This document shows positions 5,336 through 31,469 of a DNA stretch of 64,000 bases, piece by piece; within the stretch, counting starts at the first letter, position 1, and every line of letters begins with the position of its first letter. Where the stretch lies: assembly GCF_010994755.1 (NCBI RefSeq), contig NZ_WHSB02000021.1, positions 1-64,000 on the forward strand, given 5' to 3'. The position numbers and the translations under genes are program-made. The DNA is from Shinella lacus. GTDB taxonomy: Bacteria; Pseudomonadota; Alphaproteobacteria; Rhizobiales; Rhizobiaceae. The notes below the pieces were generated by a model that was not told the DNA's origin, did not search any database, and saw nothing but the letters and a program-made list of their open reading frames with translations.

Positions 5336-5590
5336 CTATGCGAGACCGCCGACGAAGCCGCTCAATTCCTTCAACCGCACCATGGCAAGCCGCATCCGGC
5401 CGTTGCAGCCGCGCTTCTTGCAGCTCGCCTTCACTTCGATCTCATCGAGATAGAGCTGCGAGCGGTCCACCTCCGCGCAGATAATGGCGCGATCGATATA
5501 GGTGAGCCGTCCGCATTTGCGGCAAACCAGCTCAAGTTTCTGGTCATCAGCCAGATCGCGTACCTGGATCGTCGTCTTCCAGTTTCCCAT
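5336..5590 (-). CDS. Small zinc-ribbon protein, 84 aa
   Basis: The product begins MGNWKTTIQVRDLADDQKLE and has one CxxC (CRKCG) and one Cx4C (CKKRGC) separated by about 35 residues, the pattern of a single zinc ribbon. Its start lies inside the last 44 bases of the Y-family polymerase gene, so it is the second gene of that operon and probably shares its SOS control. The function is unknown; a role as a polymerase accessory or nucleic-acid-binding protein is inferred only from the coupling. Confidence 0.7.
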   Translation of the reverse strand: MGNWKTTIQVRDLADDQKLELVCRKCGRLTYIDRAIICAEVDRSQLYLDEIEVKASCKKRGCNGRMRLAMVRLKELSGFVGGLA

Positions 5591-6949: not shown

Positions 6950-6964
6950 GTTCCTATTTTGTTC
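6950..6964 (-). promoter_or_regulatory. LexA (SOS) box of the polymerase operon
   Basis: GTTC (6950-6953), seven bases, GTTC (6961-6964) matches the alphaproteobacterial LexA consensus. It is 87 bp from the polymerase start codon in an AT-richer stretch, where the promoter is expected. Confidence 0.75.
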
Positions 6965-12197: not shown

Positions 12198-13198
12198 AGA
12201 AGAGCATACTCCAACGGATGGCGGCGGATGCCGAAAATCGCGGTGATGCGGCTCCCGCAAGCGATGGGACCGACAGGATTGGACTTACTCGTCGCCACTC
12301 GTCGCCAGTCATTTCCAACGTGGGAAGGGCGCTTTCCCATCTCAGCGAAGACGTCATTGTTTCTCTCGATCCGTCGAAAGTGGACGCTTCGCCCTTCAAG
12401 GACAGGTTTGAGTACGATGCGGAAGCCGATGAAAAATTCGGTGCCTTAAAGTTCTCAATTGCCACGGAAGGCCAGAGAATCCCAGTCCTTGTCCGGCCTC
12501 ATCCAACCAAGAGCGATCACTATCAACTGGCTTATGGGCGCCGTAGGCGCGACGCCATTTTGGCGATCATGGCGGAAGCTGATCGTCCTGAAACCATCAA
12601 GATCAAGGCCTATGTGCGAGACCTGACCGATCGCCAGTTGATCGAGGAGCAGACGCTTGAGAATGGTCCAAGAGAGGATCTCAGCTGGATCGAAAAAGCT
12701 ATGTGGGCCGTGCAGCTGAAAAGCAGCGGCATCTCTCAGCGTGAAACAGCTTCCATCATGGGGCTATCCGAGGTCACGGTCTCACAAATGTTCCGCGTAA
12801 CGTCCGCGATTCCGGAAGACATCATCTTTGCAATAGGCCGCGCACAGGCAGCGGGTCGCCCGAAATGGACTGCGTTTGCAGAGCTGCTGAAAGACGCGAG
12901 CAAGGTTGACGCCGTCCGAAAAATTGTCCCCACGGCGGAGTTTCAACAGGCAGATGGTGCCGAGCGTATTTCCCAGGCAATGCGTGCGACTACGTCGCCG
13001 GTGTCTCAGGTGGAAGAACACGTTAAGGAAGAAATTCTTGATTTCGTTATGGGCGGCCGCGTTTTCGGCCGCATGAAGTCTACCTTATCGGGAACGACCG
13101 TGACGATCCCGAAAAAGGAGCAGGTCTTTGCGCGGTGGCTGGCAGAACGAATGCCGGAGCTGATGCGTGAGTTCAACGCGGCCGATCCTTCGCAGTAA
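12194..13198 (+). CDS. repB: RepB, ParB-type centromere-binding protein
   Basis: The 334-residue product has the RepB/ParB layout: a flexible N-terminus, the ParB nuclease-like domain with GQRIPVLVRPHP and YGRRRRDA, the ENGPREDLSWIEKA segment, a helix-turn-helix (SQRETASIMGLSEVTVSQMF) and a C-terminal dimerisation part. It should bind the two parS-like palindromes upstream of repA and load RepA. It overlaps repA by four bases, so the two are translationally coupled. Confidence 0.95.
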   Translation: MKKSILQRMAADAENRGDAAPASDGTDRIGLTRRHSSPVISNVGRALSHLSEDVIVSLDPSKVDASPFKDRFEYDAEADEKFGALKFSIATEGQRIPVLVRPHPTKSDHYQLAYGRRRRDAILAIMAEADRPETIKIKAYVRDLTDRQLIEEQTLENGPREDLSWIEKAMWAVQLKSSGISQRETASIMGLSEVTVSQMFRVTSAIPEDIIFAIGRAQAAGRPKWTAFAELLKDASKVDAVRKIVPTAEFQQADGAERISQAMRATTSPVSQVEEHVKEEILDFVMGGRVFGRMKSTLSGTTVTIPKKEQVFARWLAERMPELMREFNAADPSQ

Positions 13199-13247
13199 GC
13201 GGGTTTCGGCTGAGAAAATCAATTGGTCGGAAGGAGAGACCGCCGCA

Positions 13248-13302
13248 AAAGAAAAAGACCCCCAAAGCGTTACCGCCGTGGAAGTCTTCCTCTGATCTAA
13301 GC
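13248..13302 (-). ncRNA. Counter-transcribed RNA (incA-type) of the repABC operon
   Basis: In the repB-repC gap the minus strand carries TTGACT (13337-13332), a 17-base spacer and GATTCT (13314-13309), followed about 55 bases later by a hairpin (13286-13257) and a run of Us. This matches the position, size and architecture of the antisense RNA that controls repC translation and incompatibility in repABC plasmids. The -10 is weak and the ends are estimates. Confidence 0.7.
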
Positions 13303-13396
13303 ACCCAGAGAATCGCATTTCCACGAATCACAGTCAAGAGTCTTTGGCGCCGTTTTGGTGAGTGGATTTCTTTTGCCTTTTGAGAGGTGAAGGAAA

Positions 13397-14611
13397 ATGC
13401 AGATAGGACGTGTAGCAACGCCACACGGGCGGCCGATGACGCTTGCCTTGGTGAGAGGCCAGCTCGAAACGGCTGATCGCCGCCCGAGCAAGGCGGTCAA
13501 CAAATGGAAGGTCTTCAACGACATCGCCGAGACGAAGGACGTTTTCGGCCTTCAGGATCGTTCAATCACGGTGCTGCAGGCGCTGCTGAGTTTCTATCCA
13601 AGCGACGAGCTTTGCGATGAAAGCGGCGGCCTGGTCGTGTTCCCATCAAACAGCCAGTTGTCCATGCGCGCCCACGGCATTGCCGGCACGACCTTGCGCC
13701 GACACCTCGCGGCGCTGGTGGACGCCGGTTTGATCCAACGTCGCGATAGCCCGAACGGTAAGCGCTATGCTCACCGGGGCAGGGGAGGGGAGATCGAGGC
13801 CGCATTTGGCTTCAGCCTGGCGCCCCTGCTTGCCCGTGCGAGCGAGTTGGCCAGCCTTGCGCAGCAGGTCGCCGCAGAGCGCCTTCAGTTCAAGCGCGCC
13901 AAAGAAGCGTTGTCGCTTTGCCGGCGCGATGTCCGTAAGCTCATCTCCGCAGCCATGGAAGAGGGCGCTGATGGTGATTGGGCGACGATCGAAGCTATGT
14001 TCACCGGCCTCCTGGCGCGTCTCCCGCGCTCGCCTCACCGCGACGACGTCGACGCGGTGCTCGACGAAATGGTGCTTTTGCGCGAGGAAATCATCAACCG
14101 CTTGGAAATTCAAGTAAAAGCAGAAAAAACGGACGTCAATGACCACCATAACGGTCGTCACATACAGAATTCAAAACCCGAATCCTTCCGTGAACTTGAA
14201 CCTCGCTCAGGAAACGAGCGGGGCGAGAAGCCGAGCCAGAAACCGAAACGGATCGCCGAGCCGCTGAAGGCATTCCCGTTATCGATGGTGCTGAGAGCGT
14301 GCCGGCAGATTGCCGATTACGCGGCGGGCGGCCGAATAGACGGTTGGCGCGACCTGATGGGGGCCGCCGTCATGGTCCGGTCGATGCTGGGCGTCAGCCC
14401 GTCGGCCTATCAGGAGGCGTGCGAGGTGATGGGGCCTGAAAATGCCGCGGTTGCCGTCGCCTGCATCCTGGAGCGCGCCGAACAGATCACTTCCCCCGGC
14501 GGCTACCTGCGCGATCTCACCCGCAAGGCGGCGCGCGGCGAATTCGGCCTTGGGCCGATGCTGATGGCCGCGCTCAGGGCGAATGGCGGAGGCGAGAAGC
14601 GAAGCGCATGA
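13397..14611 (+). CDS. repC: RepC replication initiator
   Basis: The 404-residue product is a RepC initiator: an N-terminal winged-helix region (residues about 40-140, with SNSQLSMRAHGIAGTTLRRH), a linker around 240-300 and a C-terminal domain ending near LGPMLMAALRANGG. In this plasmid family the origin lies inside repC, so the vegetative origin is probably within this gene. Expression is likely limited by the antisense RNA in the gap before it. The start follows GAGGTGAAGG. Confidence 0.95.
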   Translation: MQIGRVATPHGRPMTLALVRGQLETADRRPSKAVNKWKVFNDIAETKDVFGLQDRSITVLQALLSFYPSDELCDESGGLVVFPSNSQLSMRAHGIAGTTLRRHLAALVDAGLIQRRDSPNGKRYAHRGRGGEIEAAFGFSLAPLLARASELASLAQQVAAERLQFKRAKEALSLCRRDVRKLISAAMEEGADGDWATIEAMFTGLLARLPRSPHRDDVDAVLDEMVLLREEIINRLEIQVKAEKTDVNDHHNGRHIQNSKPESFRELEPRSGNERGEKPSQKPKRIAEPLKAFPLSMVLRACRQIADYAAGGRIDGWRDLMGAAVMVRSMLGVSPSAYQEACEVMGPENAAVAVACILERAEQITSPGGYLRDLTRKAARGEFGLGPMLMAALRANGGGEKRSA

Positions 14612-19524: not shown

Positions 19525-19742
19525 AAGCAGTGACGCGCTGCTTTAGGGCGTGGAAACCCTTGTACACGGGTACGAGTGCCGACCTGCAACGGCACTATCT
19601 CCTTGACCTTATGGTCGGGGAGCCTGCGGCGTATGCAACAGGTTCTCCGAACTAAAGGCCGTGGGGATCGTGTGTACACGGTTTTCCAACTCCCCGATCA
19701 CCAGGGGTCAAAGAGCAGTAGCGGGGGCGTACCGCAAGCTCT
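19525..19742 (+). other. Structured leader with at least five tandem hairpins
   Basis: In the gap of about 415 bp before the 100-residue gene there are stems at 19525-19543 (AAGCAG/CTGCTT), 19576-19595 (GTGCC/GGCAC), 19599-19622 (10 bp with two G-U pairs, TTAT loop), 19623-19642 (CCTG/CAGG) and 19712-19742 (AGAGC/GCTCT with an inner GCGG/CCGC). TGTACACGG occurs twice, near 19561 and 19673. The last stem ends just before the ribosome site of the next gene. This may be a cis-regulatory RNA; I do not recognise a known family. Confidence 0.45.
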
Positions 19743-19755
19743 TGGAGGAAACCGA

Positions 19756-20058
19756 GTGTCAGCATCACCCTCCTTCACATTGTATACCTATTCGCCCGAG
19801 CTTCAGCGGGTGGAAGCGCGCTGGCGCGACGATGGTATTGGCGATGCGTTTTTCGGAAACGCCGAGGCCGCCCGCGCCGCAATCGTCGAGCTGCGCGATG
19901 CGGTTGCTCACGAGCCGGGCTACGACTGCCCGCCAATGCGGCTTGAGCAAATCGATACCGTGCCGGTGACGAAGGAAGCCATCCTCGCGCTGCTCAATGA
20001 TGGAGTCGGCGCCATCGTCAAAAGCTACCACATCATCGAGACGATCGGAGGAGAATGA
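19756..20058 (+). CDS. Hypothetical protein, 100 aa, paired with a repressor gene
   Basis: The GTG start at 19756 follows TTGGAGGAAACC; longer in-frame starts would run through the hairpin leader. The product has a beta strand (FTLYTYSPEL), a helix rich in Ala/Arg and ends SYHIIETIGGE. It is probably soluble. Its stop is one base before the start of the PraR-like repressor gene, so the two are coupled. No known fold is recognised; a toxin-antitoxin-like or repressor-modulator pair is possible but unsupported. Confidence 0.55.
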   Translation: MSASPSFTLYTYSPELQRVEARWRDDGIGDAFFGNAEAARAAIVELRDAVAHEPGYDCPPMRLEQIDTVPVTKEAILALLNDGVGAIVKSYHIIETIGGE

Positions 20059-20059
20059 A

Positions 20060-20473
20060 ATGGCGAAGATCCCCGACCCGATCGACGTGGAAGTCGGTGG
20101 AAAGATCAAGGCGCAGCGCCGGCTGGTGGGCATGAGCCAGGATACCCTGGCCGCGAGGCTCGGCGTTACCTTCCAGCAGATTCAGAAATACGAGAAAGGC
20201 ACCAACCGGGTCAGTTCGAGCCGCCTAGCAGTGATCGCGCAGACCTTTGGCGTCCCGCCCGCCTTCTTCTTTCTGGGATCGACATTTGATGCTGGTCAAG
20301 CCGCCGCGGCCGCTGCTCCCGAGCTGGTCAGCTTCATCGACACCAACGAGGGGCGCGACCTCAATGTGGCGTTCGCGCGGATCAGCTCAAAAACCATGCG
20401 CAGAAAAGTCGTTGGCTTGGTCACGGCGCTCGCCGCCGCTCTGCCCAGCGCGGAGAAAGACCCCGGCCTTTAG
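20060..20473 (+). CDS. XRE-family (PraR-like) transcriptional repressor
   Basis: The 137-residue product carries a Cro/CI-type helix-turn-helix at about residues 13-67 (VGMSQDTLAARLGVTFQQIQ, then KYEKGTNRVSSSRL), followed by a short linker and a helical tail (TMRRKVVGLVTALAAAL). The layout and the PDPIDVEVGGKIKAQRR lead are those of the rhizobial PraR/phage-repressor group. The ATG at 20060 overlaps the neighbourhood of the previous stop by two bases of spacing. It may control its own operon or the next locus. Confidence 0.85.
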   Translation: MAKIPDPIDVEVGGKIKAQRRLVGMSQDTLAARLGVTFQQIQKYEKGTNRVSSSRLAVIAQTFGVPPAFFFLGSTFDAGQAAAAAAPELVSFIDTNEGRDLNVAFARISSKTMRRKVVGLVTALAAALPSAEKDPGL

Positions 20474-20506
20474 CACCGCCCGTATGGAAATTCGTGAGAC
20501 GGCTTC

Positions 20507-20535
20507 TTGAAATTTGCTGCATTGCAGCATACACT
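20507..20535 (+). promoter_or_regulatory. Sigma-70-type promoter of the anti-SD small RNA
   Basis: TTGAAA (20507-20512) and TACACT (20530-20535) are separated by exactly 17 bases. The expected start, about 20542, is three bases before the first hairpin of the small RNA. Confidence 0.65.
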
Positions 20536-20541
20536 GAGATT

Positions 20542-20652
20542 GTCGGAGCTGCACTCCTCCTCCCAGCGGCTCCGGGCGACTGACAACCCTCCTCCTCCCA
20601 GTTGTCAGTCAGAATCGAAGCCCGGTGCATCTCCTCCCGCACCGGGCTTTTT
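20542..20652 (+). ncRNA. Cuckoo/ar14-type small RNA with three anti-SD loops
   Basis: Three hairpins follow one another: 20545-20552 with 20566-20573 (8 bp, one G-U), 20578-20587 with 20601-20610 (10 bp perfect) and 20620-20628 with 20639-20647 (9 bp perfect) followed by TTTTT. Each loop, 10-13 bases long, contains CTCCTCCC, complementary to Shine-Dalgarno sequences. This is the hallmark of the rhizobial cuckoo/ar14 small RNAs, which use such C-rich loops to block ribosome binding sites. The third hairpin is also the intrinsic terminator. No protein can be encoded in it. Confidence 0.85.
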
Positions 20653-20830
20653 CATGCCTTCATTTGCGCGATGGGCAAGAGTTGGCCGAGTCCAGCGTTT
20701 CCGGAGGCGGGCAGTATAAATGCAACTGTTGATAAAGCGGCTTCTTGCGTTCGCAAGCTAAAGGATGGACTCCCAAACATACCATCTTGCGCTTAAGACT
20801 GATCGTACTTTGCAGTGGAAATGGGAAGAT

Positions 20831-20845
20831 GTTCCCGTTATGTTC
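20831..20845 (+). promoter_or_regulatory. LexA-type (SOS) box before the five-gene operon
   Basis: GTTC (20831-20834), seven bases, GTTC (20842-20845) matches the alphaproteobacterial LexA consensus and shares the ATGTTCC lead with the box of the polymerase operon at 6950. It ends 25 bp before the ATG of the SIS-HAD gene, so bound LexA would block the promoter or early elongation. Confidence 0.6.
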
Positions 20846-20870
20846 CTTTTTGAACTGATGGGAGATTTCA

Positions 20871-22814
20871 ATGGCAAAGCCATACGCTTCTGAACTGGCT
20901 CGATTGCAGGAAACCCTTCGATGGTCAGCTTCGACTGACATCGAATCCCTGAAAAATGCGGTCAAGACCGCCGGCCTCTCGCCGTTGTCTGCCATCGGAT
21001 CTGGAGGGTCGCTGACGGCCGCAAATGTGCTCGCAGCGTTGCACCAGTCATTCACCGGCAAGCCTGGCCTGGTTCAAACTCCGCTCGAAGCAGCAAACGC
21101 GAACTTGGATGTGTCCGTCAGTCAGTGGCTTTTAAGCGCTGGAGGAAGCAACGTCGATATCAATGCCGCTGCGGTTTCCCTCATTGAGAGAGAACATCGG
21201 CAGGTCGCCGTGATGTGTGGCCGGCCCGGCAGCCCGATCACCGAAATTTGCGAACGTCACCCCTTCGTTGATCTTTTATTGTTTCCGCCACCTGCAGGAA
21301 AAGACGGTTTCCTTGCGACGAACTCCCTCGTCGGCTTTTCGGCCCTGCTTGCCCGCGCGTACACTTCAGTCTTTGATCCAATCGCGTCCTGGGAAGATGT
21401 CGCTTCCACCGTCGAGCCATTTGCGGACAGCAGTTCAGGTCGGGTGGAAAGTTGGCGGGATGCCGCCGAGGTGCTTTGGGGCCGGTCCACTACGGTTGTG
21501 CTATACGGGCCTTCGACAAAGATTGGTGCGGTCGATCTGGAATCGAAGTTCACGGAGGCGGCCCTTGGCGTAGTGCAACTGGCGGACTATCGAAACTTTG
21601 CCCATGGTCGCCATCATTGGTTAGCTAAGCGTGGGCAGGAAACCGCAGTCCTCGCGTTCATCACAGATGAGGACAGGGCGATCGCCGAACGAACGTTGGC
21701 CCTGATTCCTACAGAGATCCCGATTGCGAAGCTCGAGATTAGTGGTCAAGGGCCGGCCGTGCTTCTGGGGTCTCTGCTGGCAGCGCTACACGTTACAGGT
21801 TGGGCGGGTCTTGCGCGGGCCATAGATCCTGGCCAGCCAGGCGTCCCTGATTTCGGTCGAAAGCTGTATCATCTCAATTTTCCGAGCAAAGGCCGGAAAA
21901 AAGCCTCAGAGGTTCGGGCCAAAAGTGCCAATGCCGCGATCGAACGTAAGACCGGAGAGTCGATCCGACGGCTCGAAGAACGAAAGACGCTATCTCACTG
22001 GCAAGATGCGCTGGCCACATTTGTTGGCCAGCTGCAGTCAACTACCTTTGGGGGCGTAATTCTCGACTATGATGGTACGGTTGTCGATACACGACATCGC
22101 TTTCATCCGGCACGTCCTGAAATCGTCGCCGAATTGGAGAAGATCGCAAGAAGTGACGCGACGTTGGCGATCGCCACCGGACGAGGAGTGTCAGTCAGGA
22201 AGGACTTGAGGGCAGTGCTTCCTGAGGAGTTCTGGTCACGGGTTTTCATTGGATATTACAACGGCGCAATGATCGGAACGCTCAGTGACGACAGCGTGCC
22301 CGATGGGACGGATGAAGTATGCCCGGAACTCAAAGACCTGGCTGAAGCCTTCGCCACGAGCGATGAGCTGGCGGGCTCTGCAAAGCAGACGAACCGACGC
22401 TACCAGATTACCCTCGAACCCCGTCAGTTCATGGCCGAGAACCGACTTTGGGACATTGTCCACCAATTGATCCTGCGCACCGGCTGCCGGGAGGCCATCG
22501 TTACCAGATCAAGCCATTCTGTAGATATCATTGCAAGTGGTGTCAGCAAAACCAACGTCATAAATCAGATTCAGGAGCGTTTGCCGGGCCGTCAAATTCT
22601 CACGATTGGCGACCGCGGCCGCTGGCCTGGCAACGACTACGACCTGTTGAATGCCCCGATGGGTCTCAGCGTCGATGAGGTCAGCGTCGATCCAATGACC
22701 TGCTGGAACCTCGCGGAACCCGGGCAACGCGGAGTAGCGGTTACTCGAAACTATCTCGAGGCACTCGAAGCCGTTGATGGTGGTCTGCGATTTCGTAAGG
22801 GGACTTTCCGGTGA
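20871..22814 (+). CDS. SIS-HAD fusion protein, first gene of the five-gene operon
   Basis: The 647-residue product has two parts. Residues about 15-330 look like tandem SIS (sugar isomerase) domains: IGSGGSLTAANV (42-53) resembles the phosphosugar-binding loop, and a second Rossmann-like unit follows TTVVLYGPS. After a charged linker (345-385) residues 395-625 form a HAD phosphatase: ILDYDGTVVD with Asp399 and Asp401, ATGRG as motif II and GDRGRWPGNDYD (580-591) as motif IV. A cytosolic phosphosugar-handling enzyme with phosphatase activity is likely; the substrate is unknown. The next gene overlaps its stop by four bases. Confidence 0.78.
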   Translation: MAKPYASELARLQETLRWSASTDIESLKNAVKTAGLSPLSAIGSGGSLTAANVLAALHQSFTGKPGLVQTPLEAANANLDVSVSQWLLSAGGSNVDINAAAVSLIEREHRQVAVMCGRPGSPITEICERHPFVDLLLFPPPAGKDGFLATNSLVGFSALLARAYTSVFDPIASWEDVASTVEPFADSSSGRVESWRDAAEVLWGRSTTVVLYGPSTKIGAVDLESKFTEAALGVVQLADYRNFAHGRHHWLAKRGQETAVLAFITDEDRAIAERTLALIPTEIPIAKLEISGQGPAVLLGSLLAALHVTGWAGLARAIDPGQPGVPDFGRKLYHLNFPSKGRKKASEVRAKSANAAIERKTGESIRRLEERKTLSHWQDALATFVGQLQSTTFGGVILDYDGTVVDTRHRFHPARPEIVAELEKIARSDATLAIATGRGVSVRKDLRAVLPEEFWSRVFIGYYNGAMIGTLSDDSVPDGTDEVCPELKDLAEAFATSDELAGSAKQTNRRYQITLEPRQFMAENRLWDIVHQLILRTGCREAIVTRSSHSVDIIASGVSKTNVINQIQERLPGRQILTIGDRGRWPGNDYDLLNAPMGLSVDEVSVDPMTCWNLAEPGQRGVAVTRNYLEALEAVDGGLRFRKGTFR

Positions 22815-23959
22815 ATGAAGATCTCGGCCTGAGGGTCCTCAGCGAAATCATGCAATGGAACGATGACGAAGCGCGGAGAGAGTTCGACTGGCTCCGGTTG
22901 ATGGCGCGTCTCAAATACGATGGCTATCGCGACTTCCAGGCCGGTATGCGTTTCATCGAAAGCCTCGCAACTTGGCTTCAGCAGTTCAATATCGCGGAAG
23001 AGAGAAAGACAGCCTACGATTTTGTCCGCAATGCGCTTGTCTATGTCGGACCGAGTGAAATGCAGAGACTGGTTGAACAGCTTTATCCGAAGATAGTGCG
23101 CGACAGGCTGGTGCGGATGGTTGCACAGGAGCGCGGCATTCCCCCTTATCGCATCTACGCAGACGAAGAGGCGAGCAAGGCAGTCGAGCGTCTGCGCCGG
23201 CAGACGCTATTCATGGGTCTGAGTGATGGAGCACGCATCGACGGTTTGCGCCACAGCAATGTCGGACTGTTAACCAACGAACAGCTGGTGGTCTCAACCC
23301 AGCTGGACACGGAAAAATGGCAAGACCTTCTCAGCAATCTTGAGGATGGTCTTCAGGACAAGGAAGCCAAGTTCAAGCTCGTCTATTTGATCGACGATTT
23401 CATGGGCACAGGCACGTCCTTTCTTCGGTACAACGACGAAAAAAAGAAGTGGTCGGGTAAGCTGACGAAATTCAAGGAATCGATCGAGCTTGCTCGAAAG
23501 AGCCTCGATGGAAAGCAAATATTTGCGGACAATTGGCATCTCTGCATTCACCACTACATCGGCACGCACGCGGCCTCGACGGTTATGAAAGAACGAGCAG
23601 CGCAGGCAAAAGCGGCGTTGCAGTCGGACGGCTGGGCGTCGGAAGTTCATTTCTCTTTCGGAACGATCCTCCCTGAGGCGCTTCCGATCGACGCTCATGG
23701 GAATGACTTTCAAAGATTCATTGAACTGACGAAAACCTATTATGACCCGGCAATTCGTACAAAGCACACTGACGTTGGCGGCAAAACACATCTTGGGCTC
23801 GGTTACGGCGGCTGCGCCCTTCCCTTAATCCTCGACCACAATACTCCAAACAATTCCGTAGCTCTGCTATGGGCGGAGACCGACGGCGGAAAATGCGAGG
23901 GGGGTGCGGATGCACCGCCAATGAGCCCCTTGTTTCGGCGCCGGCAAAGACATGTATAG
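22811..23959 (+). CDS. Phosphoribosyltransferase-like protein
   Basis: The 382-residue product starts at GTG 22811, overlapping the previous stop. The clearest motif is YLIDDFMGTGTSFL (192-205), the PRPP-binding loop of type I phosphoribosyltransferases (two acidic residues, then T-G-T-S). The N-terminal 150 residues are helical and unlike housekeeping PRTases, and an insert rich in Lys (about 206-230) follows the loop. Such divergent PRTases have been described in bacterial conflict systems beside ATPases. It may transfer a phosphoribosyl group to or from a nucleotide-like compound; the actual reaction is unknown. Confidence 0.75.
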   Translation: MNEDLGLRVLSEIMQWNDDEARREFDWLRLMARLKYDGYRDFQAGMRFIESLATWLQQFNIAEERKTAYDFVRNALVYVGPSEMQRLVEQLYPKIVRDRLVRMVAQERGIPPYRIYADEEASKAVERLRRQTLFMGLSDGARIDGLRHSNVGLLTNEQLVVSTQLDTEKWQDLLSNLEDGLQDKEAKFKLVYLIDDFMGTGTSFLRYNDEKKKWSGKLTKFKESIELARKSLDGKQIFADNWHLCIHHYIGTHAASTVMKERAAQAKAALQSDGWASEVHFSFGTILPEALPIDAHGNDFQRFIELTKTYYDPAIRTKHTDVGGKTHLGLGYGGCALPLILDHNTPNNSVALLWAETDGGKCEGGADAPPMSPLFRRRQRHV

Positions 23960-23966
23960 GTGAGAT

Positions 23967-25886
23967 TTGGTAAACCCGTTTGAGAAACGCGCAACGGAGT
24001 ATCTCCAGCAGGACGAGGCGTTTCTGGCAGTTGTGACGCCGGAACCCCTTTCGACGTTCTTCGAGAAGCCAGCCCAGGAGGGGAGGCTCTACGACCGCCT
24101 CGCGATGGTCATTGGAACGCCTGGGAGTGGCAAGACCACCTTGGCGCGTCTCTTTAAGTATTCGACGCTACGGATCCTTTTGAGAAACCGTGGGTTTGAA
24201 ACTTACAAGAACCTCATCGATGGTCTTTCCGCCTGTAGCGCGATCAAGGACGGGCAACCTGCCGTAATCGGGTGCCGGATCTCACTCGAGAGCGAGTATC
24301 GCGAGTTCTGGGAGTTTCCCTATCCGGACACGCTTAAGGCCTCGCTTACCGTGGCACTCCTTCAGGCGCGCGCTGTTCTGGCCTGGCTCAGAGATGCGCA
24401 GGCAGCCGGTATTCCGTTGGAAGACATTGACATTGTTGCACGACCTGACGCGGAGGCGGCGCTTGAAGCGATCGGCGGAGCCAACGGTGTCGGCCTGCAG
24501 CGACGGGCGCGCGAGATGGAAACTGCGATCTATGAGATTTCTGCGGCGCTGGTGCCACCCGATATAGATGAGGTCGAACAGAACGCCGCCGCCACCGCCT
24601 ATCGTCCTCTCGACGTCATTGACGCGTTTAGGGTGAAGGACGGTAATGAATTCCTTCAGCTCACGCCACTCGTCGTGTTCGACGACGCGCACTACCTGCA
24701 CCCGAGCCAGCTTTTGGCGCTCCAGCGGTGGCTCGCCCGCCGGGAGCTTCGGGTTGCACGATGGATCCTCACCCGCCTGGATGCACTCGCACCGGCGGAT
24801 GTTTTGATCGAAGGGCAGAATGTTTTTGAAGAGGATGAGCCTGGATTGAAGCGCGCCAGAGAGGTGACGACCATCTGGATGCAAAGCAGCGAGGGGCGCG
24901 CGAGCCAGCGTCGCGCGTTCCGCAAAATGGCAAAGGACATGGCCGGGCGATATCTCAGCCAAATGGAAGTCTTCAATCGGAGGGGCCTCAACACGCTTGG
25001 CGATCTACTTTCAACTCACATCGAAACGCTAGCGCCCTCCAAGGTCGAGAAACTGGCGAAGAAGGTTGCTGCAATCCAGCGCCGATACTCAATCACCGCC
25101 GAACGGCGGGCAATCCTTGAGCGAGAGGTCGTCGACTATCTCGATAAAGGCGGGGAAAATTCCGAGGATATGAAGCTATCGCTGCTCTCTATTCTTCTGG
25201 AGCGCTACGCGAACAGAACGCCGCAGCGCGGCCTTTTCGAAGACGAGCCGGAAGTGGACGTGGAACCGTCAAAGCCGCTGACCGCGGGCGCAGCAGTAGC
25301 CGATGGCGCGAGGATTCATCTCCTCCATCAGTTCGATCGTCCCTATTATTACGGCATCGATGCGCTGTGTGACGCAAGTTCCGAGAACGCCGAGCAGTTT
25401 CTCCACTTGGCGGCTCGGCTCGTTGCGCAATCGGAGACACAACTCATTCGGTCGAAATCGCCGACCCTCTCCAGTCAAGTCCAGCATAACCTTTTGAGAG
25501 AGCGCGCCGACGAGATGATACGCGGTTGGGATTTCCCACTCCATCACCTTGTCCGTCGACTATCGCAGGGCATCGCGGATCAATGTATCGTCAAGAGCCT
25601 CGAAGGCAATGCTCCGTTGAACGGTGGCGCGAACGCCTTCGGCATTCCCCAAGAAGACTTCGACCAGATCCCGAAACTGTATCCGGACCTAGCGAAGGTT
25701 CTGCAGTTCGGGGTCGCATACAATGCCTTTGTGCTGATCCCCAATCACAGCACGAAAAACCGCAACTGGTGCCTCGTGGAGCTGTCCGGCGTCTTGCTGA
25801 TCCGAAGCGGGTTGACCCTGAAGAGGGGTGGCTTCCTGGAGCGGCGTGTCGAGGACCTCGTGCGTTTGACTGAAGAGGCGTCATGA
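23967..25886 (+). CDS. AAA/STAND-like P-loop ATPase, 639 aa
   Basis: The TTG start at 23967 is seven bases after the previous stop, behind AGGTGAGA. Walker A is GTPGSGKTT (50-58) and Walker B is LVVFDDAHYLHP (about 235-246), with the acidic pair Asp239-Asp240. The lead sequence (NPFEKRATEYLQQDEAF) and long helical C-terminus recall ORC/CDC6-like or STAND ATPases used as sensors in defence loci. It probably couples ATP binding to control of the neighbouring enzymes. No nuclease or membrane segment is visible. The downstream gene overlaps by four bases. Confidence 0.75.
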   Translation: MVNPFEKRATEYLQQDEAFLAVVTPEPLSTFFEKPAQEGRLYDRLAMVIGTPGSGKTTLARLFKYSTLRILLRNRGFETYKNLIDGLSACSAIKDGQPAVIGCRISLESEYREFWEFPYPDTLKASLTVALLQARAVLAWLRDAQAAGIPLEDIDIVARPDAEAALEAIGGANGVGLQRRAREMETAIYEISAALVPPDIDEVEQNAAATAYRPLDVIDAFRVKDGNEFLQLTPLVVFDDAHYLHPSQLLALQRWLARRELRVARWILTRLDALAPADVLIEGQNVFEEDEPGLKRAREVTTIWMQSSEGRASQRRAFRKMAKDMAGRYLSQMEVFNRRGLNTLGDLLSTHIETLAPSKVEKLAKKVAAIQRRYSITAERRAILEREVVDYLDKGGENSEDMKLSLLSILLERYANRTPQRGLFEDEPEVDVEPSKPLTAGAAVADGARIHLLHQFDRPYYYGIDALCDASSENAEQFLHLAARLVAQSETQLIRSKSPTLSSQVQHNLLRERADEMIRGWDFPLHHLVRRLSQGIADQCIVKSLEGNAPLNGGANAFGIPQEDFDQIPKLYPDLAKVLQFGVAYNAFVLIPNHSTKNRNWCLVELSGVLLIRSGLTLKRGGFLERRVEDLVRLTEEAS

Positions 25887-26995
25887 TGGCTCGAGACTGG
25901 CGATGGGACCCGTGTGTGTCGCATGATGGTATCGAAGCCGAGCGCTTCGTCGCCGAGTACTTTCCAGAGAAGCAACGCAAGACGCTGCTCATCGCCGGGG
26001 CGGGGTTTGATCCGAGAGCGACCCAGGTCGTTGACCGGTTGGCAACTGGCGGCGCCGATCTCAAGGCTTTGTTCGTACGCGAGAGTAGACCGAATCCAGA
26101 TGCGGAGCTGACGCGCCGTGCCGAGGCAAATATCGAGCGGCTGAAGACGGCTATCCCCAATCACGAAATCGTCCGGATCGAGATTTTTGGCGCCGATGGC
26201 GCGGTTGTCGGGGGGAGGAATGTGGCCACGGCAGCGTCTCGCCAAGACATGGCGGATGTGACGGATGTCGTCGTCGATATCAGTGCGCTTTCGGTCGGTA
26301 CCGCATTTCCTCTCATTCGGTACTTCGTTGAACTCATCGATCGGGGAAGGGGGCCGAAGAACCTCCATTTGTTCGTGGCGCACGATCCGAGCCTCGATTC
26401 CCAGATCTCTTCGATTGCGAGCGATGCGCCGGGCTATGTCCACGGTTTCAAGGGCGGACTTACGCTTGACGCCGCAGCCAATGCAGCCAAACTCTGGCTA
26501 CCTCAGCTCGCGAAAGGGCGGCGGCAGGCGCTATCGCGTGTCCATGACTTCGTTGTTCCCCATGACACATGCCCGATTTTGCCATTTCCGGCCCGCGACC
26601 CGCGGTTGGGCGACATGCTGGCCGAGGAGTACATGGTTGAGTTCGAAAGCGCCTGGAAGGTCGATGCGCGCGATGTTGTTTACGCGGATGAGCAGGATCC
26701 TTTGCACCTTTACCGGACAATCCTTCGCCTGGACGATCTGCGCAAACCTGTGTTTCGCGACGCCGGCGGTTCGATCCTTATCCTATCGCCGCTCGGCACG
26801 AAGGTCATGTCGCTGGGAGCGCTTATGGCCGCCCTAGAAAGGGATTTACCAGTCGCTTACCTTGAGTCGATAGGGTATGATTTCAAAGCGTCGGCGGAAC
26901 CTCAAATGCCGGCACCGCATCTCATTCATGTCTGGTTGGAGGGAGACGTCTACCCGCAGCCTCGCCCCAGGCTGAAGAAAGGACTGATTCAATGA
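25883..26995 (+). CDS. Unknown Rossmann-like protein of the five-gene operon, 370 aa
   Basis: I do not recognise a family. The N-terminus forms a Rossmann-like unit (KTLLIAGAGFDPRATQVVDR, then LKALFVRESRPNPDAEL), followed by VTDVVVDISALSVGTAFPL and a HLFVAHDPSLD strand. Near residue 300 a second strand-loop, ILILSPLGTKVMSLGALMA, might form another nucleotide or sugar-phosphate site. The start codon overlaps the stop of the ATPase gene and its own stop overlaps the kinase start, so it is an integral part of the operon. It could be an effector or an enzyme acting on the same metabolite. Confidence 0.65.
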   Translation: MMARDWRWDPCVSHDGIEAERFVAEYFPEKQRKTLLIAGAGFDPRATQVVDRLATGGADLKALFVRESRPNPDAELTRRAEANIERLKTAIPNHEIVRIEIFGADGAVVGGRNVATAASRQDMADVTDVVVDISALSVGTAFPLIRYFVELIDRGRGPKNLHLFVAHDPSLDSQISSIASDAPGYVHGFKGGLTLDAAANAAKLWLPQLAKGRRQALSRVHDFVVPHDTCPILPFPARDPRLGDMLAEEYMVEFESAWKVDARDVVYADEQDPLHLYRTILRLDDLRKPVFRDAGGSILILSPLGTKVMSLGALMAALERDLPVAYLESIGYDFKASAEPQMPAPHLIHVWLEGDVYPQPRPRLKKGLIQ

Positions 26996-28044
26996 CTACC
27001 TCGTCCGAAAAGCCCAGCATTTTTGGTACAGGCCTGATCGCTCTCGATCTTGTCATTGGTCTCGACAGCCAGGCGCCCGTTCATTCCTGGACTGGTGGAA
27101 CCTGCGGCAACATCCTTGCAATCATGAGCTACCTTGGCTGGGACTCCTATCCCATCGCCCGTATGAATGGTGACCCCGCTTCCGAGCGGGTTCGCGTTGA
27201 TCTCGCGAGATGGGGCGTGCATCTGGATTTTACCGATTGTGCGCCAACCGGGCACACGCCAATCATCATTCAGCAGATTAAGCGCGCGCGCGACGGTTCG
27301 CCGACGCATCGCTTTCTGTGGACATGCCCTCATTGTGGCCAACGCCTTCCGAGCTACCGTCCGGTCACGCAAAACGCGATAGAAAGCATTTTGCCAGCAC
27401 TCTCCCAATCGTCTGTTTTCTTCCTTGACCGCGTGTCGCGCGCGGCGCTCTCTCTCGCCGCAGAGGCGGCCCGTTCAGGTGCCATTGTCGTATTTGAGCC
27501 TTCCGGGAAATCTGACGAGAAGCTATTCTCAGAAGCACTTCATATTGCTCATATCGTCAAATATTCGGATCAGCGGCTGCCGGATGCTGGCGGTACGATG
27601 ACTGGCGATCACGCGACATTGGTCGAAATCCAAACCCTCGGCTCGCAAGGTCTTCGCTACAGGCATCGCTTAGCTGGTGTTCCTTCCGAGTGGCTGAACC
27701 TTCCTGCCGTGCCTGCCCCTCGCCTGGTTGACACCTGCGGCTCGGGTGATTGGTGTACAGCCGGGTTCTTGGCGGCCGCGGCTTCCAAGGGCGTCGAAGG
27801 GCTGAGAAAAGACGGAGGACAGGGTATCGCGAGCGCGCTTCGATTTGGACAAGCACTTGCGGCATGGAATTGCGGCTTTGAGGGGGCACGCGGCGGGATG
27901 TACGTTCTGGGGCGGGAAGAATTTGAACGTCAGATCGATGCGATCGTGTCGGGGAAACCGCTCCTGCGCGTCGTCGAACGCCCGCAAAGTACGGAGCCGT
28001 CAGTGGCTTGCCCAGCATGCCCGCGCGATATCTCCGCAGCATAG
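26992..28044 (+). CDS. PfkB-family sugar/nucleoside kinase with two CPxC motifs
   Basis: This 350-residue PfkB (ribokinase-type) kinase has the N-terminal glycine pair in WTGGTCGNILAIMSYLG and the catalytic signature DTCGSGDW (247-254), where Asp253 is the predicted base. Unusually it contains CPHC (Cys112, Cys115) inserted in the body and CPAC (Cys340, Cys343) at the very C-terminus; together they could form one zinc site. Substrates of the family are sugars or nucleosides, fitting the PRTase and SIS-HAD partners. It is the last gene of the overlapping operon. Confidence 0.8.
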   Translation: MTTSSEKPSIFGTGLIALDLVIGLDSQAPVHSWTGGTCGNILAIMSYLGWDSYPIARMNGDPASERVRVDLARWGVHLDFTDCAPTGHTPIIIQQIKRARDGSPTHRFLWTCPHCGQRLPSYRPVTQNAIESILPALSQSSVFFLDRVSRAALSLAAEAARSGAIVVFEPSGKSDEKLFSEALHIAHIVKYSDQRLPDAGGTMTGDHATLVEIQTLGSQGLRYRHRLAGVPSEWLNLPAVPAPRLVDTCGSGDWCTAGFLAAAASKGVEGLRKDGGQGIASALRFGQALAAWNCGFEGARGGMYVLGREEFERQIDAIVSGKPLLRVVERPQSTEPSVACPACPRDISAA

Positions 28045-28518
28045 CATTTTTCCAGTTCAGCCTGGGCGCCCCAGTTGTTCCCGTCAGTAGTGTGTTTTCG
28101 GCGAGCGCAAAGTCTTGCCTGGCGGATGGATTTCGGCGTCGATGGAGAACAGGTCTGTCAGACCGATGCAGTAGTGGTAAGGGCGAGACGGTGCAGCGGA
28201 TAACCGTTACGAAGAGATGCGATCTGGTTCAGCAGCGCGTGATCGCTGGTGTCGCCTAGGTACGGTCTTGCGCTCACCGGCAAGTTTTGCCCCGTCATCA
28301 TCATCGAGCTTCTCGGCCGTTTACGTTTTCTTTTAACTTCACCCGCAGAGTCCGTGAGCGCGGTTTGTATTGCGTCCGCGCCTGTTCGACCCCTCGGCAA
28401 TCTTTTCGAGGGGAGTCGGCAGGGGAGGGCCGTGGCTTTTTGGTGGAGCAGAATATTCCGGAAGGCGACCTCCGCTGCTCAACCTGCCGTTTTCGACTAG
28501 GTCTCCAGGATAATAATT
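28045..28518. other. Intergenic stretch between the operon and its terminator
   Basis: Nearly 475 bp follow the kinase gene before the next strong terminator. Open frames here are short, lack ribosome sites and resemble nothing known. It may be a long 3' untranslated region, a decayed gene or an unrecognised RNA. Confidence 0.4.
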
Positions 28519-28552
28519 ACGAACGATAAGCCAACTTTATCGTTCGTTTTTA
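28519..28552 (+). terminator. Intrinsic terminator
   Basis: ACGAACGATAA (28519-28529) pairs perfectly with TTATCGTTCGT (28537-28547) and is followed by a T-run. It is the first strong terminator downstream of the five-gene operon. Confidence 0.8.
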
Positions 28553-28622
28553 TCTGTCGACGGGCGCGGCGGTTTATGCGCCAGATACTGGCTCAAAGCG
28601 CCGTCTTGTGGTACTGCTCAGC

Positions 28623-29576
28623 ATGGTCTCACGCGCACGAATCATCCCCGATCCCCCGCCCATCTTCCCACTCCCGCCAGATTGGGCGCGGGCCGCCGGC
28701 GAGCGGCAAGGCGCTGGCGATGCGGAGCTTTTCGCCGGCGCGGCGCTCGCGGCTATCCACCCGATCGCCCGCAGCGAGCATCCGCTGGGACAGCTCTGGC
28801 GGCAGCGCCTGGCGCTGTCGGCCGCAGAGGCCGTCGTCCGCTGGCAGGGGCGCACGGAAGACGCCGCGACGCTGCGCGATCATCTCTATCTGACCCGCCC
28901 CGGGGACGATCCGGGGCCGGCTGGCCGGCTGCTGCAGGCCTGGAGGGCGCTGGGCAGAAAATCCTCGCTAGGGCCGGCATCGCTGAATGGCGAATGGCCG
29001 GTGATCTTCGCCGAGTTTTTGTCGGTCATGATCGACGAGCCGGCGCAGGAGGCGATCAACGCCGCACTGACGGCGAGCGTCGGAACCAGGAACCCGATCG
29101 AGGCGGCGAGCACGACGGCCGCGGCCAGCCTACACCTGCGGCCTGATAGCCGGCCGTTGGCACTCTGGCTCGCGGACGCGGTGCTTGCCCGGCGTCTGAA
29201 CTGGCCGGTCCCGGTGCCACTCTTCGCGGCGCATCTGAAGGGGGACGACCTGCGCCTCGCCGCCGGTCCGCGTGCCGATCCGCAGCGGTGGCGGACCGCA
29301 TGTGCCTTCGCGTATGGGCGAGGAGCAACAGCGGCGTTCGATCTTTACGCCGATCTGGCGCGGCGAACGGCACAGCTGCTGGCCGTGGCGCCCCAATTGC
29401 GCGGCAAGGACGCTGACGTCGTGGTGGCCACGCTGATCAGCGAAGATGCTCAGGCCGCGCGGCCGGTCTGGACGGCCAGCGACCGCTCCAGCCGTCGGCT
29501 GTTCGAGCGGTTGGTGGCGCTCGGCGGTGCGCGCGAGCTGACCGGACGGCCGACGTTCCGGCTTTACGGATTGTAG
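28623..29576 (+). CDS. DUF1403 family protein
   Basis: The 317-residue product is an Ala/Arg-rich soluble protein matching DUF1403, known from plasmids and genomic islands of Rhizobiales; function unknown. Features are the N-terminal IPDPPPIFPLPPDWAR and internal repeats of helical Ala/Leu segments. It is immediately followed by the ScpB-like gene, with which it usually travels. The ATG at 28623 is chosen over a GTG 15 bases upstream. Confidence 0.75.
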   Translation: MVSRARIIPDPPPIFPLPPDWARAAGERQGAGDAELFAGAALAAIHPIARSEHPLGQLWRQRLALSAAEAVVRWQGRTEDAATLRDHLYLTRPGDDPGPAGRLLQAWRALGRKSSLGPASLNGEWPVIFAEFLSVMIDEPAQEAINAALTASVGTRNPIEAASTTAAASLHLRPDSRPLALWLADAVLARRLNWPVPVPLFAAHLKGDDLRLAAGPRADPQRWRTACAFAYGRGATAAFDLYADLARRTAQLLAVAPQLRGKDADVVVATLISEDAQAARPVWTASDRSSRRLFERLVALGGARELTGRPTFRLYGL

Positions 29577-29579
29577 CCG

Positions 29580-30278
29580 ATGGGACGGCGGCCACAATCG
29601 ACCGAGGGGCTGGACACTGAACTGGCGGATCTGCCGCCGGAGTTGCGCTGGCGCGAATGGATGGGCCGGGTCGAGGCGGTGATTTTCGCGTCGTCCGAGC
29701 CGGTGAACCGCGAGACGCTGACGCAGTTGGTCGGGCGCGACTGCAGCATCGACCTGCTGATCGACGACATCCGCGACGAGCTGCGTGACCGGCCTTATGA
29801 GCTCGTCTCCGTGGCCGGCGGCTGGCAGCATCGGACCCGCATCCGGTTTGCTGATGCGATCCGCCGTGTCACCGGTGTCGAGCAGGAAGGACGCTCATTG
29901 TCGCAAACCGATCTGCTGGTGTTAGCAATAGTCGCCTATCACCAGCCGATCACCCGACACGAGATTTCCAAGATCATCGGAAAGGAAGTCAGCCGTGATA
30001 GAGTTGCTCACATTCGCTCTTTGGGTTTTCTTTCCTCGGGTCCGCGCAGTCCGCAGCCGGGCGCTCCTTACACGCTGGTCACGACACGGACCTTCCTGTC
30101 ACGCTTCGGGTTAGGGACTTTGCGCGACCTGCCGAACCTCGAATTGCTCGAAGATGCCGGCCTGCTGAGCAGGGACAGGAGGTTCGATGGCGACATGCCG
30201 ATCGCATCGGACGAACAGGACGAACAAGCCGACTTCGAGGACGACAGCAGCGAGGACTACCAGGCTTCGGATCGCTGA
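29580..30278 (+). CDS. ScpB-like segregation/condensation protein
   Basis: The 232-residue product has the winged-helix pair of ScpB: WMGRVEAVIFASSEPVNRET at the start (chromosomal ScpB: EALLFASSEPV) and LSQTDLLVLAIVAYHQPITR with RDRVAHIRSLGFL further on. ScpB bridges SMC complexes in chromosome condensation. A plasmid copy beside DUF1403 and without a ScpA gene suggests a plasmid-specific role in segregation. The C-terminus is acidic. It starts three bases after the DUF1403 stop. Confidence 0.8.
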   Translation: MGRRPQSTEGLDTELADLPPELRWREWMGRVEAVIFASSEPVNRETLTQLVGRDCSIDLLIDDIRDELRDRPYELVSVAGGWQHRTRIRFADAIRRVTGVEQEGRSLSQTDLLVLAIVAYHQPITRHEISKIIGKEVSRDRVAHIRSLGFLSSGPRSPQPGAPYTLVTTRTFLSRFGLGTLRDLPNLELLEDAGLLSRDRRFDGDMPIASDEQDEQADFEDDSSEDYQASDR

Positions 30279-30343
30279 CCATTCACAGGCTTTGCCCGGA
30301 TCCGGGAAAGGGGATTCAGGTTGAGAATCTAGATCTACGGGTA

Positions 30344-30374
30344 TTGACCCTGCAGTGGCTACAGGCCGTAGCAC
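30344..30374 (+). promoter_or_regulatory. MerR-type metal-responsive promoter 1 (L,D-transpeptidase)
   Basis: TTGACC (30344-30349), 19-base spacer, TAGCAC (30369-30374). The spacer holds the dyad CCTGCAG-TGG-CTACAGG. The overlong spacer with a centred dyad is diagnostic for MerR-family control, and the dyad matches three other sites in the window. Confidence 0.8.
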
Positions 30375-30407
30375 CCTTTCTTCATGCGAATCAGGGCTCG
30401 GACTAAA

Positions 30408-31469
30408 ATGATCGAGGCAATACTCCACCGGCTCGGGCCGCTCGTCTTGTTTGTGCTGCTTGTCGCCGGACTTAACGGCTGTACCACCATGAGCCTCGAC
30501 GATATCGGCGATCCGTCGCCGAAAATTCCGGTCAAACTCGTCGGAGAGATGGCAAAGAAAGGGATGACGCCGGAGAGCCCAGTGCTGATACGGATCTTCA
30601 AACAAGAAAGCGAGCTCGAGATTTGGAAGCAGGATCGGACCGGTCGCTACGCACTTTTGAAGGTGTATCCGATGTGCCGATGGTCAGGAAAACTCGGCCC
30701 GAAAACCCGGACCGGCGATCGGCAGGCGCCCGAAGGATTTTATCATGTCTCCACAGGCATGCTGAATCCCAAGTCGCAATTTTATCTATCGTTCAACCTT
30801 GGCTATCCGAACCGCCTCGAGGCGGCACTGAATTACACCGGCGAAGCTCTGATGGTCCACGGCGCTTGTTCTTCGTCGGGATGCTACGCGATGACCGACC
30901 AAGGTGTCGGCGAAATCTACGCCCTCGTGCACAGCGCACTCGCCGGTGGCCAAGACAAGTTTCAGGTGCAGGCATATCCGTTTCGCATGACCGTGGAGAA
31001 TATGGTGGCCAATCGCAGCGATCCGAACTTCGCGTTCTGGAAAAACCTGAAAGAAGGTTACGACGCCTTCGAATTTTCCAAGCGGCAGCCAAAAGTCGCG
31101 GCGTGCAATCGTCGATATGTTTTCAACGCCGATTTCGACAGGGACCCTACCAACCCCCTTGCTGCCTGTCCCCCTCTTAAACAGGCTATAGATCCGACCC
31201 TTTCCGCCAAAGTTCAACAAGAGGATCAGAAACTGACCGCGCTGCTCGACAAGGATTCTCCTGCGACCGTGACCGCCTATGCTGACGGTGGGATGCACTC
31301 CAGCTTCCGCGAACTGCTGAAGCAAAACGGCGCCGACAAGCTTGCCCAGAAAATCTCGACCATTAAGTACCCGATCAGCCGTCCAGACGCGGCCTTGGCG
31401 GACCCTTACCAGGGCGAGCCTTGGAAACCGGCGCTTAGCCGTTCCGAAAAGGACAGAGACGCCGATTGA
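30408..31469 (+). CDS. L,D-transpeptidase (YkuD family) lipoprotein
   Basis: The 353-residue product has a lipoprotein signal (hydrophobic segment ending LLVAGLNGC) and a YkuD catalytic centre HGACSSSGCYAM, where the His and the final Cys are the expected active residues. It would cross-link or edit peptidoglycan at the periplasmic face. Its metal-type promoter places it in the CadR/PbrR regulon of this region, unusual for this enzyme class. The start at 30408 is preferred over ATG 30384, which would lie only about ten bases after the -10 box. Confidence 0.8.
   Translation: MIEAILHRLGPLVLFVLLVAGLNGCTTMSLDDIGDPSPKIPVKLVGEMAKKGMTPESPVLIRIFKQESELEIWKQDRTGRYALLKVYPMCRWSGKLGPKTRTGDRQAPEGFYHVSTGMLNPKSQFYLSFNLGYPNRLEAALNYTGEALMVHGACSSSGCYAMTDQGVGEIYALVHSALAGGQDKFQVQAYPFRMTVENMVANRSDPNFAFWKNLKEGYDAFEFSKRQPKVAACNRRYVFNADFDRDPTNPLAACPPLKQAIDPTLSAKVQQEDQKLTALLDKDSPATVTAYADGGMHSSFRELLKQNGADKLAQKISTIKYPISRPDAALADPYQGEPWKPALSRSEKDRDAD

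Follow-up and report, generated by a model that had tools for sequence, protein, structure and literature searches.

The window analysed here is a 64,000-nucleotide stretch of Shinella lacus DNA (contig NZ_WHSB02000021.1, positions 1 to 64,000), and our subject is an operon in it whose five genes encode a SIS-HAD protein, a phosphoribosyltransferase (PRTase) of the PRTase-CE family, an ORC-CDC6-like AAA+ ATPase, a CARF6 protein and a PfkB-family kinase. With a little more confidence than doubt, we read these genes as a conflict system (defence or stress) of mobile elements, belonging to the effector/ORC-CDC6-like/CARF6 kind in a form that would use a PRTase as effector, stand under SOS control and carry a phosphosugar arm of its own. 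The five open reading frames (ORFs) lie on the + strand (Table 1), and their junctions of -4, +7, -4 and -4 bases bear out the overlapping and abutting arrangement that the original prediction, made from the letters of the window, had described. The catalytic residues to which it had pointed in the HAD domain, the phosphoribosyl pyrophosphate (PRPP) loop, the P-loop and the PfkB domain are all invariant in alignments of the relatives. Its P-loop ATPase can now be specified as ORC-CDC6-like, and its fourth gene, which it had left without a recognised family, encodes a member of one already in the catalogues, CARF6 (PADLOC profile PDLC01916, CARF6--CARF_CARF_CARF, 432.6 bits). As for its interpretation, the idea of a single conserved accessory unit is supported, one in which an SOS-type box and an ATPase come together with a chemistry of ribosyl groups or phosphosugars; the PRTase is likelier to be the effector than a biosynthetic step.

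Table 1. Features of the operon and of its surroundings in the window
Feature	Position	Strand	Basis or remark
LexA/SOS box GTTC-N7-GTTC, alphaproteobacterial type	20831..20845	+	motif match, position kept in relatives
SIS-HAD: predicted double SIS phosphosugar-isomerase/deaminase-like module (N-terminal) and HAD-IIB phosphatase (C-terminal)	20871..22814	+	Pfam, AlphaFold2, Foldseek
PRTase-CE phosphoribosyltransferase, predicted effector	22811..23959	+	PF24390, PADLOC PRTase_III-A
ORC-CDC6-like AAA+ ATPase, predicted switch	23967..25886	+	PF24389
CARF6 protein, predicted ligand sensor	25883..26995	+	PADLOC PDLC01916, predicted CARF fold
PfkB-family sugar/nucleoside kinase, probable four-Cys zinc site	26992..28044	+	PF00294
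Possible terminator: 12-pair inverted repeat, then T-rich stretch	28519..28547	+	weak
repABC-type plasmid replication genes	10983-14611		S-element and ctRNA (antisense RNA) at 13245-13399
ar14 small RNA	20538-20654	+	RF02344, 106 bits; flanked by the HTH gene and the operon

As read from gene order, the core of this kind of system is an effector gene followed by an ORC-CDC6-like ATPase and a CARF6 gene, with an exchangeable first slot. A minimal PRTase-CE/ORC/CARF6 trio occurs in locus L101 (L and G numbers are our handles for loci and genomes), where it lacks SIS-HAD and PfkB and lies close to a dGTPase-like gene, a dUTPase and a DNA methylase. The first slot is taken by an HD-CE protein in L148:7245-11227 and L151:530-4421, and by a calcineurin-like phosphoesterase (metallophosphatase) in L149:7912-12370, the one on which the domain scan was done, and in L150, apparently a near-copy of it; L152 holds a single protein-kinase/ORC-CDC6-like protein of 1239 residues, and a kinase-AAA-CARF fusion had already been described in 2014 (PMC4012209). 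L110, L111 and L112 resemble the locus in the window, with five or four of its families. Of our arguments, this exchange of the first position before a constant ATPase/CARF6 pair speaks most strongly for the view that the PRTase is probably a swappable effector, and the ATPase together with CARF6 probably the switch. The module in the window fits the scheme, with an ATPase whose motifs are intact, CARF6 directly 3′ of it and a gene of a catalytic effector family 5′ of it. PF24389 was over cut-off in 13 of 398 Pseudomonadota genomes, and the locus was examined in nine of them, those of G593, G490, G334 and G620, with short matches, being left out; since three candidates were scored per genome and the window's own ATPase was missed in this way (3 of 129 candidates scored), these counts are lower bounds.

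The PRTase itself matches PF24390 (PRTase-CE) with 64.9 bits against a cut-off of 27, and residues D195, D196 and G201 of its PRPP loop are invariant among 35 aligned PRTase sequences, as are the named residues of a C-terminal motif, H343-N344-x-P346-N347-N348; among solved structures, neither this protein nor the ATPase has a clear relative by sequence. PRTase-CE was over cut-off in 18 of the 398 genomes of the Pseudomonadota sample, and loci were fetched for 17 of these, all except the window's own. Five genomes hold CARF6 loci of the operon type (the window, L106, L110, L111 and L112), and, with L101 also set apart, the neighbourhoods of the remaining 12 differ from the CARF6 type. Among them, domain scans place PRTase-CE next to a reverse transcriptase in L103 and L109, and in L100:9402-10949 it forms a fusion with an OLD-like TOPRIM domain (PF24395), a GTPase-like gene lying close by; such partnerships with reverse transcriptases and TOPRIM are as expected for a portable effector. 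In this regard, the window's PRTase also matches the PADLOC profile PRTase_III-A with 42 bits and so resembles that of type III-A retrons, from which the operon differs in that its PRTase is flanked by SIS-HAD and the ATPase, without a reverse transcriptase, the ATPase and CARF6 standing in its place. A gene in L036 that joins PRTase and ATPase was considered as proof of contact between the two proteins and dropped: the stretch before the ATPase start does not resemble the C-terminus of a PRTase, and the fusion is therefore probably a frameshift.

The ATPase, whose start codon is TTG with an alternative GTG one codon further, reaches 40.3 bits with PF24389 (cut-off 27), and G53, G55, K56 and D239 of its P-loop and Walker B motifs are invariant in 53 aligned rows. 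The CARF6 gene, directly 3′, overlaps it by 4 bases. The name CARF6 reportedly goes back to a census of CARF proteins published by Makarova and colleagues in 2020. The predicted fold of the protein is that of a CARF domain, with Csm6, Can2, Cam1, Csa3 and Cad1 among the nearest solved structures, although Foldseek alone did not single out CARF proteins for this model: its top matches, all with low TM-scores, were the tails of cation-chloride cotransporters, KaiC and others, with no CARF protein ahead of Sso2081 at rank 47. As in type III CRISPR and CBASS systems with CARF or SAVED domains, the operon thus has a CARF-fold protein; it differs from them in that no nucleotide cyclase was found at the locus and profile scans found no nuclease domain in CARF6. 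No cyclic-nucleotide synthase (CD-NTase or Cas10) is present among the ten proteins scanned at 19576-31466, and SMODS was found in 0 of seven genomes. The Cas10 profile PF22335 gave weak matches in five of seven genomes, but also in Escherichia coli, and we take these matches to be probably GGDEF domains.

The five families hold together over a wide range of relatives. A protein search with CARF6 retrieved 1741 relatives with E up to 0.001 from 7999 candidates scored, and 17 plasmid records hold one; when genomes were scanned with this one sequence as query, no relative could be confirmed, and a scan with an alignment yielded 48 loci. The loci compared were taken from 10 of the 17 plasmid matches, 48 genome contigs, four genomes and one IMG/VR contig, and make up a set of 63 (L006-L063, L106, L110-L112 and L115), from which L001-L005 were excluded, these being the window itself and short pieces, among them L004 of G091, a real relative represented by 4 kb, and L003/L005, which appear to be the same contig as L047. 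All five families are present in 49 of the 63 loci and in 42 of the 45 that have more than 1.5 kb on both sides, in agreement with the original prediction, against which an unconserved five-gene set would have spoken. The three flanked exceptions are L014 and L112, without PfkB, and L048, in which PRTase and ATPase were not recognised. With S for SIS-HAD, P for PRTase, O for ATPase, C for CARF6 and K for PfkB, the order S-P-O-C-K prevails (35 of 45), followed by P-O-C-S-K and S-K-P-O-C (three each), S-P-O-C (two) and irregular arrangements (two).

Such a constant company of small-molecule enzymes around a sensor brings up a different reading, in which the joint product of SIS-HAD, PfkB and PRTase is an unusual nucleotide that CARF6 senses and relays to the ATPase, the effector being the ATPase itself or something encoded outside the operon. 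The 42 flanked loci with all three enzymes favour this messenger synthesis, as do the nucleotide-binding CARF proteins among the nearest solved structures and the lack of a cyclic-nucleotide synthase round the operon and of SMODS in the genomes. We nevertheless hold it rather unlikely, and weakened by the existence of loci with the trio alone: L101 does without SIS-HAD and PfkB, an HD-CE or calcineurin-like protein fills the PRTase slot elsewhere, and PRTase-CE is found beside reverse transcriptases where the other four families were not recognised nearby.

Assigned by record title or kinship, alphaproteobacteria contribute 37 of the 63 loci, and the others come from beta- and gammaproteobacteria, Planctomycetota, Poribacteria, Tectimicrobiota, one actinobacterial plasmid and a viral contig, the five families occurring together in Proteobacteria, Planctomycetota, Tectimicrobiota and the actinobacterial plasmid. 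In a tree of CARF6 restricted to rows of at least 330 residues (n=58), the Entotheonella row is nested in a clade of gammaproteobacterial metagenome-assembled genomes, a placement that fits horizontal transfer. The distribution is patchy, since only 3 of 289 genomes of the class, the window's own counted, carry a CARF6 of the operon type. Relatives are often borne on plasmids or lie beside integrase, transposase or conjugation genes, and several are on chromosome-sized contigs (L031, L036, L038, L039 and L041), so that confinement to chromosomal housekeeping, which the original prediction had named as evidence against itself, is contradicted by the former and not by the latter. Ordinary plasmid-borne catabolism of sugars or nucleotides is an explanation that we disfavour as highly improbable. 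SIS, HAD and PfkB are indeed common catabolic folds, and relatives are publicly annotated as 'sucrose-6-phosphate hydrolase' or 'carbohydrate kinase', but CARF6 and the ORC-CDC6-like ATPase are constant partners, an SOS-type box precedes the operon, and the commonest neighbour cluster that we read as transporter-like appears in 5 loci, in most cases at a distance of hundreds to thousands of bases.

SIS-HAD and PfkB are, on the same comparison of loci, accessories to the effector/ATPase/CARF6 core, and among the loci examined those of the operon type were seen only alongside the PRTase form. SIS-HAD matches Pfam Hydrolase_3 with 35.2 bits and TIGR01484 with 38.5 bits, slightly below the cut-off of 41.8, and D399 and D401 of its HAD domain are invariant in 37 aligned sequences. 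Its N-terminal SIS module, proposed in the original prediction, escapes Pfam, yet the assignment holds on the predicted fold: the AlphaFold2 model (pLDDT 90.3) matches the isomerase domain of GlmS and NagB-II by Foldseek with E about 1e-12. The kinase reaches 51.6 bits with PF00294, and G250, G252 and D253 are invariant in 55 aligned rows, at least 91% of which also retain C112, C115, C340 and C343. From this retention, the four cysteines are probably a zinc site formed by an insert and the C-terminus. The insert has a conserved CPxC and the C-terminus a CPxC pair, an arrangement that is, to our knowledge, unusual within the PfkB family.

The trigger would be provided by the box GTTCCCGTTATGTTC, which ends 26 bases before the first ATG. 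The stretch described as SOS-box-associated in the original prediction starts at 20831, which is the first base of this sequence, and the motif GTTC-N7-GTTC, which we take to be the alphaproteobacterial LexA site, keeps its position upstream of the operons of relatives. It is this conserved position that makes the box credible, the motif count alone being unremarkable (three matches in the window against 2.11 expected, a number reached by 31 of 100 shuffles). Of 30 alphaproteobacterial loci, 19 have the box at some point from -250 to +60 relative to the first gene, as compared with 90 of 17,501 other stretches of the same loci and, for neighbouring ORFs, 1 of 244 upstream regions; when each branch of the CARF6 tree, grouped by eye, is given one vote, the comparison becomes 6 of 11 versus 1 of 244 (Fisher p 9e-9). 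The set tested comprised the window and 29 of the 37 alphaproteobacterial loci, six offering no upstream sequence that could be used, and L111 and L112 being added later; of these two, L111 has a box at -67 and L112 has none. The genome's own lexA gene has GAAC-N7-GAAC upstream and its recA only forms with one mismatch. A second repeat in the window (GTTC/GAAC-N7, 6950-6964) starts 87 bases ahead of a Y-family polymerase gene (IMS, 5547-6863, - strand), and repeat and gene are a probable second SOS unit on the same plasmid, judging by the motif and its placement.

A further partner, seen in some relatives, is NADAR, a family that reverses guanine ADP-ribosylation (PMC11125620). Of the 63 CARF6 loci, 11 (9 of the 45 flanked ones) have a NADAR gene within 419 bases of a core gene; six of these proteins score 89-100 bits in Pfam, and the others were found with a hidden Markov model built from the six. 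Position and orientation vary, and the loci belong to six or more distinct branches of the CARF6 tree, and the link has thus been kept or remade several times. Four of seven CARF6 genomes hold a NADAR over cut-off, only at the locus in G458 and G641, at the locus and elsewhere in G308, and on another contig in G091. PRTase-CE is followed in L098:7102-9035 and L099:8333-10267 by a distant NADAR and two proteins of about 1100 residues, a different neighbourhood and a second PRTase-NADAR pairing.

These associations raise two further ideas. One, which we hold only tentatively and consider unlikely, is that of an immune system triggered by DNA damage and acting by reversible N-ribosylation, in which the PRTase would add phosphoribose to a nucleobase or to guanine-containing nucleic acid, NADAR would remove it, and SIS-HAD and PfkB would supply or recycle a dedicated sugar phosphate; if true, this would be an immune chemistry apart from ADP-ribosylation and cyclic-nucleotide signalling. 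The other is not immunity: an SOS-induced repair and salvage pathway for DNA damage or glycation, in which ribosylated or glycated bases are removed and their sugar phosphate recycled, with ATPase and CARF protein as regulators. A fitting precedent is the NADAR gene ybiA of E. coli, which shares a LexA-controlled operon with dinG, rhlE and ybiB, the last of these predicted to encode a phosphoribosyltransferase (PMC11125620), and the SIS module does resemble isomerases and deaminases of amino-sugar phosphates. We regard this second idea as quite unlikely, given the patchy spread in the class, the lack of NADAR in the window's own branch and genome, and the HD or calcineurin-like partners of ORC-CDC6-like/CARF6 pairs, for which a repair role is not obvious; it retains some probability because SOS control and a NADAR nearby would suit repair.

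Returning to the conflict system with a PRTase effector, its action may be pictured as follows. LexA would keep expression of the operon low and be removed upon DNA damage or the entry of foreign DNA. The switch would consist of the ORC-CDC6-like ATPase and of CARF6, whose fold is that of cyclic-oligonucleotide sensors, CARF6 binding a nucleotide-like ligand and, with the ATPase, gating the PRTase. Once the switch has fired, the PRTase would use PRPP to put phosphoribose on a base-containing target, or simply waste PRPP, and in this way halt growth or the invader. SIS-HAD and PfkB may process a phosphosugar that feeds the PRTase reaction or arises from it, and in some relatives the N-glycosidase NADAR could take the ribosyl group back off.

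Several points weigh against this picture. No phenotype is on record, and the missing synthase and SMODS leave the CARF ligand unexplained. An exact box is wanting in 11 of the 30 alphaproteobacterial loci (two have a one-mismatch form and one a reversed form), and the non-alphaproteobacterial loci show no exact LexA box of the E. coli type, only one-mismatch forms in L010, L052 and L056. NADAR was not found by profile search of seven genomes in the window's genome, G455 or G025. The view of partner genes given by the PF24389 survey may be biased. No relative turned up in 50,697 phage records. The PADLOC families listed for 119 ORFs neighbouring the relatives, among them restriction methylases, phospholipase effectors and mad genes with 2-5 members each, say little about defence islands, because there was no control set and 25 of 205 families were listed.

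The kind of system is already known, its families being catalogued in PADLOC and Pfam: genes 2-4 of the operon are members of PRTase-CE (PF24390), PF24389 and CARF6, the related trios, including those with HD-CE (PF24391), share the order effector/ATPase/CARF6, and the consecutive accessions PF24389-PF24391 suggest that the authors of the families saw them together. To such modules the operon adds SIS-HAD and PfkB, some relatives add NADAR, and many alphaproteobacterial loci an SOS-type box. A search of the open literature, whose scope did not extend to the papers likeliest to cover CARF6 and PRTase-CE, showed neither this five-gene PRTase form nor its box nor the NADAR link. The dinG-ybiA-ybiB-rhlE operon of E. 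coli is similar in its SOS control, its NADAR and its predicted phosphoribosyltransferase, but has helicases instead of the ATPase and CARF6, and its YbiB belongs to the TrpD2 family by a reference given in the paper (PMC11125620). In the DprA-PRTase anti-phage system of P2-like phages, a PRTase is proposed as abortive effector, as here, with DprA as the proposed sensor (PMC9122126). In Ter systems, PRTases and HAD phosphoesterases occur whose predicted product is derived from a nucleoside or nucleotide (PMC7824862); no Ter family of the TerC/TerD/TerB type is present among 20 window proteins scanned, the operon's five included.

The surroundings are those of mobile DNA. The operon is plasmid cargo, as indicated by the repABC genes in the window, which also carries a relaxase and the Y-family polymerase. 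The neighbouring repressor-like gene (HTH_3, Pfam) and the small RNA of the original prediction were both recovered, the latter as ar14, and a promoter-like match lies just 5′ of ar14 (20507-20535). The promoter/terminator scan stayed at chance level, with 9 terminator-like sites against a shuffle mean of 9.0. In the 119 neighbouring ORFs, phage integrase and NADAR (four each) are the commonest of the 25 Pfam families listed out of 106, and those listed with three members each include type IV secretion system coupling proteins, patatin and integrase core. A patatin-like phospholipase gene adjoins the operon in L008 (4889-6514), L024 (12433-13974), L023, L029 and L044; the one in L008 sits between two copies of the PRTase/ATPase/CARF6 trio. 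A gene resembling nucleoside 2-deoxyribosyltransferases precedes a Sphingomonas operon (L013:1287-2162). On the IMG/VR contig, L115:18-6090 reads PRTase-ATPase-CARF6-PfkB-NADAR, and the adjoining genes were read as phage-like replication.

PRTase effectors thus recur in retrons, beside DprA and in the CARF6 operon, and for those of retrons the mode of action is given as unknown in PMC9122126. The CARF6 family offers a handle on how such effectors act: the NADAR partner (11 of 63 loci) points to N-ribosyl chemistry, CARF6 and the ATPase to a switch, and the SOS-type box to a trigger.

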